From NCBI RefSeq assembly GCF_003324165.1, contig NW_025407835.1:1-64000 (forward strand): a DNA stretch of 64,000 nt, given 5' to 3'. Of this stretch, positions 22,106 to 26,314 are shown in pieces; the stretch's first letter is position 1, and every line of letters starts with the position of its first letter. The position numbers and the translations under genes were made by a program. This stretch comes from Naegleria lovaniensis (taxonomy: Eukaryota > Heterolobosea > Eutetramitea > Acrasida > Naegleriidae). Below the pieces are notes generated by a model. The model had not been told where the DNA came from. It made no database searches and was given only the letters and a program-made list of their open reading frames with translations.

Positions 22106-22830
22106 ATGTCTTCGGTAGGTATCATGGATTTTTTGATTCCGTTTGTCTGTGGTGGCTAATAATCTCTTCTTGTGTTATATGAACAATAATACAACAACAT
22201 AATCAATGTAAATGATCCGATATATATGTTTGTTTTGAATTGAACAATCAATTGGATGATGAATGTATGTTGATGATGATGATGGTGCTGATGGATGACT
22301 CGAATTAATCTCAACAAAACAACCATATGATCATTGAAACTTGCAAAATAATCAATACATTGTTTGAAAACAAACAATTAATATTTCGGAATCTTGTTCC
22401 GTGGATTATTTAAATGAATGTTTATTATTATTATTATGGGAACAAATTCAAAATAATATTACATACTTGGCCTATCATTATAAACCAAAAGGCCTTGGAT
22501 ACTCTAGTAAACCCTAAGCCTTTTCTCAACGAATCGATAGGAAAATCTGTTGTTGTCAAGCTCAAATGGGGTATGGAATATAAAGGACTTTTGAAATCTG
22601 TGGATCACTACATGAATTTACAATTAGCAAACAGTGAGGAATGGATTGATGGTTCATTCAGAGGAAACCTTGGAGATTTGTTAATCCGATGCAATAATGT
22701 CCTATACATTCGACAAGTTGATCCAGAAACTGAGGAAAAGGAATACAATGATCCTAAAGCAACATCTTCACTATTGAGACAGCAAGGCAATGGTGGAAAC
22801 GTAACAGAACAACAAGACATGAAGGAATAA
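22106..22830 (+). CDS. SNRPF: Small nuclear ribonucleoprotein F (SmF)
   Basis: Exon 1 is only nine nucleotides (22106-22114, Met-Ser-Ser). After a 377-nt intron (GTAGGT donor, AAAAG acceptor), exon 2 runs 22492-22830, giving 115 residues. The protein reads [42 protein letters not shown] and [14 protein letters not shown], which is the Sm1 and Sm2 fold of SmF almost residue for residue. SmF is one of the seven proteins of the spliceosomal Sm ring. The C-terminal 30 residues are a Gln/Asn/Glu tail absent from the animal protein. An unspliced start at 22414 would add a Tyr-rich, low-complexity leader, which I consider intronic. Confidence 0.85.
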
Positions 22831-23110: not shown

Positions 23111-24370
23111 ATGCCCTATAACGAAACAGAGATCAAGTGTGTCGTCGTGGGAGACGGTGCCGTAGGTACGTTCTTGCATTGTTCCATCCGTAATCTGTTT
23201 ATACAAATTTCAAACTGTCAATTCTGTCCAACATTTATTATTGATCAATTTAAAACAATAGGAAAGACATGTCTGGTATGTTATCATCATACACACGCGC
23301 CATCTCATTGAATGATATCATCGATACTATTGATCACACACATAACAAAATATTTTACTTTACACATGATGATGATGACAAAAATGTGGCAATCATTCAT
23401 CATCCATCACCAACCATTTGGAACTCATACAAATTTTCAATTCTCAACATCTTCAAACCTTCATATTCGATATATTCATTTGCATGTCACATTAGGTCAA
23501 AGTGTTTGTCGATAACAAATTCCCCGAAGGATATGTTCCAACTGTTTTTGAAAACACCTATCTCATTCAAGAATATAGAGGATTTAAAGTAAATCTTGGA
23601 ATATGGGATACAGGTAAGTGTTGGAGAGTGCCAACATTGTAGAATTTAGTGATTTTGTGAAATGGTTCTAAAATGGATGCATCATTATCTTACTAATTTT
23701 GAATGATTCTATGGTTGTTGAACTCTTGCTGAAATGTTTGATAATTGTGGAACTCTTGTGAATGATAATTGTCATGATTCTTCTCAACAATAGCTGGACA
23801 AGAAGATTAGTATGTAATATGATACAATTATGATGATGATGATGACTCATTTCAAAAATCATCTTGATTTACTCCAATTTTTCACAATCTTTTTCAACAG
23901 CGGTAGGTCATTGACACAATTTATTGAAATTTACCATTCTTTGTACATTTTTATCAGATCGTCTGAGGCCACTTTCTTATCCAGGAGCTAATGTCATTAT
24001 CATTTGTATAAGCGTTGTCGATCCAAAACCTTTTGAAAATGTCAGAACCAGATGGTTGCCAGAAGTCACACATCATTGTCCACATGTTCCCATTGTTTTG
24101 GCAGCTACAAAAACAGATCTTCGTGAAGATCAAGCTTCATTGAAACTTCTTCAACAACGAAATTGCAAACCTGTCACTTCTCAAGAAATTGAACAATTTG
24201 CCAAAGAAATTAAGGCATTCTCCTTTCAAGAATGTTCAAGTAAATTGAACAGCGGAATTAAGGAACTTTTTGAAAAGTGTATGCAAGCAGTATTATTTCC
24301 AAATGAAGGAAAAGAAGGATCTAAAAAACAAGAGGATTCAAAGAAGAAGAAGGATTGCTTAATGATGTAA
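23111..24370 (+). CDS. Rho-family small GTPase, six exons including a 2-nt exon
   Basis: Exons: 23111-23165, 23262-23275 (14 nt), 23496-23613, 23794-23809 (16 nt), 23901-23902 (2 nt), 23958-24370; total 618 nt, 205 residues. Introns are 96, 220, 180, 91 and 55 nt, all GT-AG. The joined product has the P-loop GDGAVGKTCL, NKFPEGYVPTVFEN (switch I with Thr), [20 protein letters not shown] (switch II), AATKTDLRED (TKxD base motif) and ECSSKLNSG (SAK-like). It ends in a polybasic stretch plus CLMM, a prenylation box, so membrane attachment is expected. Sequence style is Rac/Rho. Every junction falls in a conserved block whose length leaves no slack, which is what fixes the tiny exons. Exon 5 (CG) supplies the third base of Tyr and the first base of Asp in EDYDRLRP. 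Confidence 0.85.
23901..23902 (+). other. Two-nucleotide coding exon (CG) of the Rho GTPase
   Basis: Flanked by TTTTTCAACAG on the left and GTAGGTCATT on the right, so both splice sites look canonical. Exon 4 ends in ...GAT TA and exon 6 starts AT CGT CTG; only a C followed by a G in between yields Tyr-Asp and keeps the frame. It acts like a recursive splice site displaced by two bases. Inferred from the conserved protein; no transcript data are available here. Confidence 0.75.
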
Positions 24371-24487
24371 ACATGATAAATTCAAACAATTTGATTGTGC
24401 AATTCTCCTGTTGTGTTGTCCTCCTAAGAGGTCAAAGCTTAACTGTCACTTGCCAATCGCACTTGACCATCCAAAAATTACGAAAAA

Positions 24488-26314
24488 ATGGCTCAACTCA
24501 CTCATCCAACAACCTTTGAAGGTTTCCAAATCAAACGTGTCTGTATCGTTGGCGCTGGCTCCAGTGGTCTCTCCTCCATAAAGGCTCTTCTCGAATCCAA
24601 TTTCACAATCAAACCAGAATCCGTTCCTTCCTATCCACATAATTTTCAAACTAACAATAATAACAACAATAACAACCACACGAATCCAAACTCTTCCGAT
24701 CCATTCAAACCAAAAATTCTATTCGAACCCGTGTGTTACGAAGCAACCAATGACATTGGTGGTTTGTGGAAATTTTCACAACAAGAAAGTGAATTTTCAT
24801 CTGTGTATAAATCGACAGTGATCAATACGAGTAAGGAAATGATGAGTTTTTCGGATTTTCCCATACCGGATGAGTTTCCTTCGTTTTTACCACATTACAA
24901 GATTATTGAGTATTTTAAAATGTATGCCGATCATTTCTCGTTGTGGAAATATATTCATTTGGAAACTCGAGTGGTGTCGATCACTAAAAAAGGAGAGAAA
25001 TATCTTGTGAAGAGTGTGAAACATGTTAACAAGGATGACCATACACCATGTGAAAAGGTAGAAGAATTTGATTTTGTGATGGCCTGTACTGGACATCATT
25101 CCAAACCTCAAATTCCTCAATTCGAAGGTCTTAATGAACATTTCAAAGGTCATGTCATGCATTCACACGCCTACAAGGATCCATTCAAAGAAGAATTTCT
25201 CAACAAGAATGTTCTCGTTATTGGAATTGGAAACAGTGGAGGAGATATTGCAACAGAATTGGCCAAAAACGTTGCAAAAAGCGTCATTCTCTCCACTCGT
25301 TCAGGAACATGGATCATTCCAAGAGAATCTCTTTTTGGTTCTCCATTGGATCACGTTCCTCGTTATTTGTGGTTATTACCAACTGCTGTTTTACAACTAG
25401 TCATGGAAAGTACCATGAAATTATTTTACGGAAATATTGAAGGAGTGGCAAGAAATTTACAACCTCGTCATCACTTGTTGAGTTCTCATCCAACGATTAA
25501 TAGTGAACTTGTTGGAAAGATTCGAACTGGAGCAATTTCTGTTCAAAGAAATGTTTCGAAATTTTTAAAGGATGGTCATTCAGTTGAATTTGAAGATGGA
25601 ACCATTGTTCACAACGTTGACACTGTGATTTTGTGTACAGGTTACAAAATTGAATTCCCGTATTTGAATGAAATTTCTGAGGACTTGTCATTGTGTCAAC
25701 GAGAGGACAATCAAGTTCATTTATACAAGTACATGTTCCATCCTTCACATAAATCCATCGCCTTCATTGGTCTAGTTCAACCATTGGGAGCAATCATGCC
25801 CATTTCAGAATTACAAGCAAGAATTGCCACTCGTGTATTCCGTGGAGACTGTCACTTGCCATCCGAAGCTGAAATGAACACAGACATTGAATTGAAAAAA
25901 AAGAATATGGAACAACGATATCTCAAATCTAAACGACATACCATTCAAGTCGATTACACACTCTACATGGATGAACTTGCAGAAATGATTCAAGTTCAAC
26001 CTCGTTATTTAAATTATCTTTTCACACATCCAAGATTATTTGTGAAATTATTGAACTCTCCAGCATTTCCAGCCACGTATCGAATTGAAGATCAGTCTCC
26101 ATTCATTGATCAAAAACAACGTCAAATGGAACGAGAACAAGCTATAGAAACTCTTCAAAAATTTTCCTATGATTTACTGTCTGAAAATTATCAACCCAAT
26201 CCCAATGAAAGAAGTAATAAGAGAGAAAATTCGTTTGTCTTGGTAGTAGTGTTACAGGCCGTGTTTTTATTTTTCGTTTATTTGATTTATGTATTGAGAA
26301 GAAAATTGAACTAA
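24488..26314 (+). CDS. Flavin-containing monooxygenase, membrane-anchored
   Basis: Single exon, 608 residues. The FAD-binding loop VCIVGAGSSGLSS is at residues 18-30, NDIGGLWKFS follows, and the FMO identifying motif appears as FKGHVMHSHAYKD near residue 220. The NADP-binding loop is VIGIGNSGGDIATELA, and ILCTGYKIEFPYL is the conserved ATG-like motif of the family. The last 25 residues form a hydrophobic segment ending in RRKLN, a tail anchor typical of ER-bound FMOs. Such enzymes oxygenate N- or S-containing small molecules with NADPH and oxygen; the substrate is unknown. An Asn-rich insert of about 20 residues interrupts the region after the first Rossmann loop. Confidence 0.9.
   Translation: MAQLTHPTTFEGFQIKRVCIVGAGSSGLSSIKALLESNFTIKPESVPSYPHNFQTNNNNNNNNHTNPNSSDPFKPKILFEPVCYEATNDIGGLWKFSQQESEFSSVYKSTVINTSKEMMSFSDFPIPDEFPSFLPHYKIIEYFKMYADHFSLWKYIHLETRVVSITKKGEKYLVKSVKHVNKDDHTPCEKVEEFDFVMACTGHHSKPQIPQFEGLNEHFKGHVMHSHAYKDPFKEEFLNKNVLVIGIGNSGGDIATELAKNVAKSVILSTRSGTWIIPRESLFGSPLDHVPRYLWLLPTAVLQLVMESTMKLFYGNIEGVARNLQPRHHLLSSHPTINSELVGKIRTGAISVQRNVSKFLKDGHSVEFEDGTIVHNVDTVILCTGYKIEFPYLNEISEDLSLCQREDNQVHLYKYMFHPSHKSIAFIGLVQPLGAIMPISELQARIATRVFRGDCHLPSEAEMNTDIELKKKNMEQRYLKSKRHTIQVDYTLYMDELAEMIQVQPRYLNYLFTHPRLFVKLLNSPAFPATYRIEDQSPFIDQKQRQMEREQAIETLQKFSYDLLSENYQPNPNERSNKRENSFVLVVVLQAVFLFFVYLIYVLRRKLN

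Follow-up and report, generated by a model that had tools for sequence, protein, structure and literature searches.

The window, a 64,000-nt stretch of DNA (positions 1-64000 of contig C15), carries on its plus strand a gene for a Rho-family GTPase with an unusually short predicted exon. All genome searches described here covered the genome to which the window belongs (30.69 Mb in 97 contigs). The GC content of the window is 35–41%; the published genome of Naegleria lovaniensis is described as having 37% GC, introns in 47% of its genes and a median intron of 80 bp (PMC6125883). The gene model is composed of the following features.

23111..24370, plus strand: Rho-family GTPase gene from start to stop codon, 6 exons, 205 aa
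23111..23165, plus strand: exon 1, 55 nt (last 34 nt also by spliced alignment)
23166..23261, plus strand: intron 1, 96 nt, GT-AG (sequence and spliced alignment)
23262..23275, plus strand: exon 2, a microexon of 14 nt (sequence and spliced alignment)
23276..23495, plus strand: intron 2, 220 nt, GT-AG (sequence and spliced alignment)
23496..23613, plus strand: exon 3, 118 nt (sequence and spliced alignment)
23614..23793, plus strand: intron 3, 180 nt, GT-AG; position common to paralogues L022, L025, L038, L054 and L073
23794..23809, plus strand: exon 4, a microexon of 16 nt, CTGGACAAGAAGATTA; L073 has a 16-nt exon here too
23810..23900, plus strand: intron 4a, 91 nt, GT-AG, Tyr68 phase 2; position common to L036 and L073
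23901..23902, plus strand: predicted exon 5, 2 nt, CG, the third base of Tyr68 and the first base of Asp69
23903..23957, plus strand: intron 4b, 55 nt, GT-AG, Asp69 phase 1; position common to L035, L047 and L073
23958..24370, plus strand: exon 6, 413 nt including the stop codon (first 338 nt also by spliced alignment)

The coding sequence of 618 nt (205 aa and a stop) contains no internal stops or frameshifts. The start codon, P-loop, switch regions and TKTD are intact, as is the C-terminal CLMM, a CaaX box. Pfam placed the product in the Ras family (4.3e-45). In a phmmer search of PDB chains it matched human Rac1 (1.1e-61), with residues 7–190 aligned without gaps, straight through the junction of exons 4, 5 and 6. 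The features by which we assign a protein to the Rho family (P-loop, switch II, a Ras-superfamily match and a CaaX box) are all found in it, and the gene is an intact Rho GTPase gene.

Directly upstream, at 22500-22830 of the window on the plus strand, lies a gene with an LSM domain (PF01423, 3.9e-22), resembling a spliceosomal Sm protein; downstream, at 24467-26314, also on the plus strand, lies a flavin-binding monooxygenase gene (PF00743, 1.8e-128).

Splice boundaries and competing models at Tyr68-Asp69

The first-pass annotation had proposed that the bases CG at 23901-23902 form an exon of their own. All the boundaries that this reading needs are in place: exon 4 ends in ...GAAGATTA at 23809 and is followed by gtatgt, the sequence ttcaacag runs to 23900, CG occupies 23901-23902, gtaggt starts at 23903, tatcag runs to 23957 and the last exon starts with ATCGTCTG at 23958. 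In the rebuilt coding sequence TA, CG and AT join to TAC GAT, giving Tyr68-Asp69 as proposed, and the predicted spliced mRNA across exons 4, 5 and 6 reads GATTACGATCG. The gapless alignment with Rac1 across the junction bears out the claim that the Rho block is restored at the right length. If exon 4 is spliced directly to exon 6, a TAA does result, again as the annotation had it.

The same annotation stated that every alternative donor or acceptor tried breaks the frame or the motif. For GT/GC-AG boundaries this held: with donors from 23794 on and acceptors before 24010, 0 of 27 single-intron pairs were in frame, and with the outer sites fixed, no inner exon of 1–60 nt bounded by AG and GT/GC other than CG kept the frame. 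Joins at any dinucleotides gave 502 in-frame solutions in the region listed, none of them GT-AG or GC-AG, and two single AT-AC introns are in frame; we rejected these two because they add residues to the motif or remove residues from it. The bases CG are thus needed for both frame and motif, with no GT/GC-AG alternative, and the two-nucleotide exon is the sole GT/GC-AG reading found that keeps the frame together with the switch-II block; it is repeated in one paralogue, L073.

A spliced aligner that accepts exons shorter than 5 nt had been recommended for this locus. Our own protein-to-genome spliced aligner sets no lower limit on exon length and has a frameshift option; it accepts GT or GC donors and AG acceptors only. 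Splice-site matrices were derived from 85 introns of paralogous loci of the same gene family, the window gene being left out; all 85 introns begin with GT, in a setting where the aligner allowed only GT/GC donors and AG acceptors. Queried with five different paralogue proteins, the aligner recovered the 2-nt exon five times out of five, with no frameshift. When the CG acceptor was masked, the best model of the window gene was 17 bits worse and required a frameshift.

The GT-AG introns on both sides have normal sites and lengths. Relative to the 85 family introns, the donor of intron 4a (GTATGT, 9.1 bits) lies at the 46th percentile and its acceptor (9.1 bits) at the 94th; the donor of intron 4b (GTAGGT, 7.8 bits) lies at the 26th percentile and its acceptor (4.8 bits) at the 32nd. 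Family introns are 39–430 nt long (median 89), a range that includes both 4a (91 nt) and 4b (55 nt).

The arrangement is rarely produced by chance. When the interior of the 148-nt interval was shuffled 20,000 times with its dinucleotide content preserved, a fraction of 0.0004 (0.04%) of the shuffles offered any AG-[CT]G-GT solution and not one reached the observed summed splice-site score. Of 108 real introns examined from the aligned loci, 66 were 80 nt or longer; these (9,237 scannable nt) contained 11 occurrences of AGNNGT and two of AG[CT]GGT; both of the latter have poorer sites than those observed in the window gene.

Paralogues with predicted two-nucleotide and other minimal exons

A genome search with a paralogue protein exposed the gene L073, which was absent from the listing of the first search.

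G000:C34:62590 onward, plus strand: L073/L074, a Rho+BTB gene with its Rho part in eight exons
C34:62988-62989, plus strand: predicted 2-nt exon TG of L073 (aligner and shuffle test)

The exons of L073 are 51 (as aligned), 60, 55, 16, 2, 49 and 85 nt long, followed by a long last one whose open frame continues into a BTB domain (PF00651, 1e-19), so the gene is RhoBTB-like. On the donor side the layout is GGAGGATTA, gtaagtat, 52 nt, ccacag and TG; on the acceptor side it is TG, gtatgtaa, 50 nt, tttcaag and ATCGTTTGAG. The spliced mRNA predicted across the 2-nt exon reads GATTATGATCG. Its codons at this point are TAT GAT, against TAC GAT in the window gene, a synonymous difference that turns CG into TG, and without TG the junction would read TAA, as in the window gene. 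The two genes have three introns in common, at Ala phase 1, Tyr phase 2 and Asp phase 1, as well as the exon lengths of 16 and 2 nt; the other two introns of the window gene are at positions not shared with L073.

In L073, a single GT/GC-AG intron never leaves an open frame if its donor lies within or downstream of the 16-nt exon. The aligner picked the TG exon with five of five queries. With TG masked, the frameshift-free model skips the 16-nt exon, reads through intron 4b, loses AGQEDY and scores 13.6–15.1 bits worse. In the shuffle test 0.7% of sequences had any solution and 0 of 20,000 had one as good as observed. The exact pattern CARGARGAYTAGTRNGT, representing the Tyr-phase-2 donor, occurs at three places in the whole genome: in the window gene, in L073 and in L036 on C62. 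In the tree, L073 groups weakly with L050 (80/85; the bootstrap had not settled). A sister relation to the window gene is not the tree's grouping, yet the corresponding constraint was not rejected (p-AU 0.105).

We used paralogue L012 for common numbering, where Tyr68 and Asp69 of the window protein become Y61 and D62. The final count comprised 39 Rho-like rows defined by score, a few of which (e.g. L045) may be Ras rather than Rho. Left out of it were the near-identical copies L013, L039 and L051 (and L005), loci inside longer stretches, the loci L003, L006, L014, L019 and L023, which have one exon over the matched part, and at least nine weaker places of the first genome search. The 39 rows contain 109 introns and 70 internal exons. 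Nearly half of the introns (51 of 109) occupy 12 positions within the 13 switch-II codons W53–R65. Eight internal exons in seven genes are 10 nt or shorter (1, 2, 2, 4, 6, 6, 6 and 10 nt); a 2-nt exon is present in one of the 38 Rho-like rows other than the window gene, namely L073. Another 19 small-GTPase rows, with 16 introns, had no internal exon of 10 nt or shorter, although with three internal exons in all they make a weak control. Near-identical Rho genes lie on the contig pairs C13/C68, C17/C85 and C36/C65, which suggests uncollapsed haplotypes or recent segmental copies.

The other very short exons assigned a place are as follows.

G000:C22:109000-113500, plus strand: L035, exons ATCG (4 nt) and ATTAAG (6 nt) in a row, in switch-II codons
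C68 and C13 (L018/L051) and C2 (L050): 6-nt exon TTACGA between Asp phase-2 introns
G000:C9:318000-323000, minus strand: L042, candidate 1-nt exon A (aligner)

The introns around the 4-nt and 6-nt exons of L035 are 53, 52 and 49 nt long, and L047 has a 10-nt exon. Skipping of TTACGA in L018, L050 or L051 is predicted to be in frame and to drop only Tyr-Asp, so both forms could be made. A 6-nt exon seen in L033 in an early alignment was gone once the splice-site matrices had been trained, and it was not counted.

In L042 the candidate layout is GAAG, gtatgt..51..tttag, A, gtaagt..77..aacag and ATATGATCG. The 1-nt exon beats the best aligner model without it by 8.5–12 bits, and in the shuffle test 4% of sequences had any solution and a fraction of 0.0002 had one as good in sum. 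The acceptor of this exon is weak (2.5 bits, below the family 5th percentile of 2.7). As many as 19 of 104 GT/GC-AG single pairs are in frame without a stop; one of them adds a single residue (QEGIYDRL) by way of a poor donor. This conventional intron, too, would hold the frame if one added residue is accepted, which makes L042 a weaker candidate for a 1-nt exon, one that the sequence does not compel. A PDB search with L042 (E up to 1e-60) gave no match, and no relatives elsewhere appeared in one scan of viral_contigs.

Both introns that flank CG in the window gene are attested singly: the Y61 phase-2 intron is present in L036, which lacks the D62 one, and the D62 phase-1 intron is present in L035 and L047, which lack the Y61 one. 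In the sister genes L036 and L042 (99/99) the introns of these few codons differ considerably, so intron positions have changed between close relatives. We infer that ultra-short exons arise when introns come to occupy neighbouring positions in the same conserved codons. Shrinkage of the 6-nt TTACGA of L018/L050 to two bases by intron sliding is conceivable but not needed, as the flanking positions occur separately in L036, L035 and L047. Duplication or transposition of an intron was rejected as a source: blastn matches among family introns are 15–46 nt long, except for 59 nt between L026 and L027, which are one pair of recent copies. In that search the sole match of intron 4a, 22 nt long, was to an intron of L045, and no match between 4a and 4b was reported. 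We regard as evenly balanced a broader proposal: that the switch-II stretch is an intron hot spot whose neighbouring positions repeatedly gave exons of 1, 2, 4 and 6 nt in paralogues, that an intron-defined spliceosome would handle exons of one or two bases routinely and that many more would be hidden in the genome.

Explanations, order of splicing and known minimal exons

The bases CG at 23901-23902 very probably form, in a working Rho GTPase gene, a genuine coding exon of two nucleotides that is probably constitutive. This reading is based in part on what the locus itself has been shown to contain, two predicted GT-AG introns, complete and ordinary, that lie two bases apart in the switch-II stretch.

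The best placed of the other explanations, itself quite improbable, is that an assembly indel broke the frame of a true single intron and that AG-CG-GT is coincidental. Long-read assembly procedures are prone to indels, and the reads of the published N. lovaniensis assembly were presumably PacBio. FALCON assembly and Quiver polishing from raw reads are described for it (PMC6125883); if that is the assembly analysed here, indel errors are possible. Unexplained frameshifts, one in each, are indeed present in three of 58 small-GTPase rows (L034, L044 and L069; 27,053 aligned coding nt), where the cause may be an assembly error, decay, a failure of the aligner or yet another hidden exon. For the window gene, however, an error at the junction would have to coincide with a chance AG-[CT]G-GT with sites as good as those observed (reached in 0 of 20,000 shuffles), and it would have to recur at the same codons in L073.

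Slightly less probable still is a decaying pseudogene, or a gene with mostly unproductive transcripts, that has no real splicing solution at the motif. Among the paralogues aligned, none is close to the window protein (best identity 54–55%), whose branch is longer than the median end branch in two trees (0.81 and 0.92 vs 0.62 and 0.71). Against decay stand the rest of the gene, intact over 618 nt without stops or frameshifts, the strong matches to Rho structures and the 2-nt exon itself, which preserves the frame.

We consider it more improbable again that the two introns are nested or recursive, as in a stwintron or at a ratchet point, with CG forming part of a splice site of an outer intron that is remade after removal of an inner one. 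Two tandem introns are presumably removed in sequence here, and in stwintrons, described from several fungi, two introns likewise lie so near each other that one is excised after the other. In the stwintrons so described, however, the inner intron splits a donor, branch site or acceptor of the outer intron, whereas here, judged on donors and acceptors, both introns are complete with sites of their own; the two bases are needed in the mRNA and are kept as an exon, so no outer site is interrupted. At a ratchet point AG is joined directly to GT, making a zero-length exon; the locus has AG-CG-GT. Recursive ratchet points are described as sitting inside very long introns (PMC13149111), and the whole interval here is 148 nt. 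The suggestion of a recursive site displaced by two bases thus survives in its sequential part, in that removal presumably proceeds one intron after the other, but there is neither an AG joined to GT nor a long intron.

Hardly credible, finally, is a single non-canonical intron (neither GT-AG nor GC-AG) from exon 4 to the last exon with Tyr lost or altered: the 502 in-frame joins include some giving QEDRLRP without Tyr as well as the two AT-AC introns, but such boundaries are unseen in the 85 family introns (for which the aligner allowed only GT/GC-AG), the block intact in Rac1 would be broken and the like arrangement of L073 would be left unexplained.

Under the reading of CG as an exon, the window gene would be expressed, and introns 4a and 4b, both short, would each be recognised by intron definition. 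An acceptor complex and a bound U1 snRNP cannot both occupy two bases, so the introns would be removed in two successive spliceosomal rounds and not simultaneously. Either order would leave a usable site: if 4a leaves first, GATTACG is followed by gtaggt, and if 4b leaves first, cag is followed by CGATCG. In the window gene and in L073 alike, a transcript lacking the exon would meet a stop codon at once, so the skipped product would be useless and probably degraded.

Exons of 1–3 nt had been called extremely rare in the first-pass annotation, with a single-nucleotide exon of Arabidopsis as the one precedent. More cases exist, with 1-nt exons in plant APC11, plant VPS55 and Fusarium CYP621A. 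The 1-nt exon of APC11, in Arabidopsis and other land plants, is reported to be backed by cDNA sequencing and reporter constructs (PMC4674806; PMC8831610). According to Guo and Liu (PMC4674806), an engineered 2-nt exon (TT) was spliced correctly in Arabidopsis and not in rice; in their proposal the two introns around the APC11 exon are removed one after the other, and they cite, from potato invertase, a 9-nt exon at which the second intron leaves first. For VPS55 of plants, a conserved 1-nt exon is reported with RNA-seq and RT-PCR support (PMC8831610), and in the CYP621A P450 genes of Fusarium a 1-nt exon is described as confirmed by SRA reads (PMC12940212).

As those sources describe it, the APC11 exon is, like ours, an ultra-short coding exon between two introns that is essential for the frame; it is constitutive and was missed by annotation. 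Unlike it, the exon predicted here has 2 nt instead of 1 nt, belongs to a Naegleria-type amoeba and not to plants and is predicted from genomic sequence. The VPS55 exon is described as present in some gene copies and absent from others, as is the exon type of the window gene, in an unrelated gene. The account of CYP621A resembles our case in that the exon was deduced from a conserved motif and a fixed length, in CYP621A also from an intron-free relative; it concerns one orthologous position, whereas we deal with a family that has many neighbouring intron positions and several ultra-short exons.

Searches of full-text literature for two- and one-nucleotide exons, and for microexons with Naegleria, gave no report of this case, most subscription papers lying outside that scope; the term '2-nt' is absent from the main text of PMC8831610 and PMC12409088. 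Minimal exons are already known (1-nt exons with RNA evidence in plants and a fungus); the family setting here is unusual.

Two diverged genes with a 2-base exon, in a lineage distant from plants, animals and fungi, are an argument that intron-defining spliceosomes can in general handle minimal exons. This Rho family provides a natural series of short exons (1, 2, 4, 6, 10 and 12–17 nt), most of them around the same few codons, and this series makes the minimal spacing of introns and the order of their removal directly testable. Gene finders and read aligners readily overlook exons this short, so models of Rho genes in the genus Naegleria may be wrong at an essential motif.
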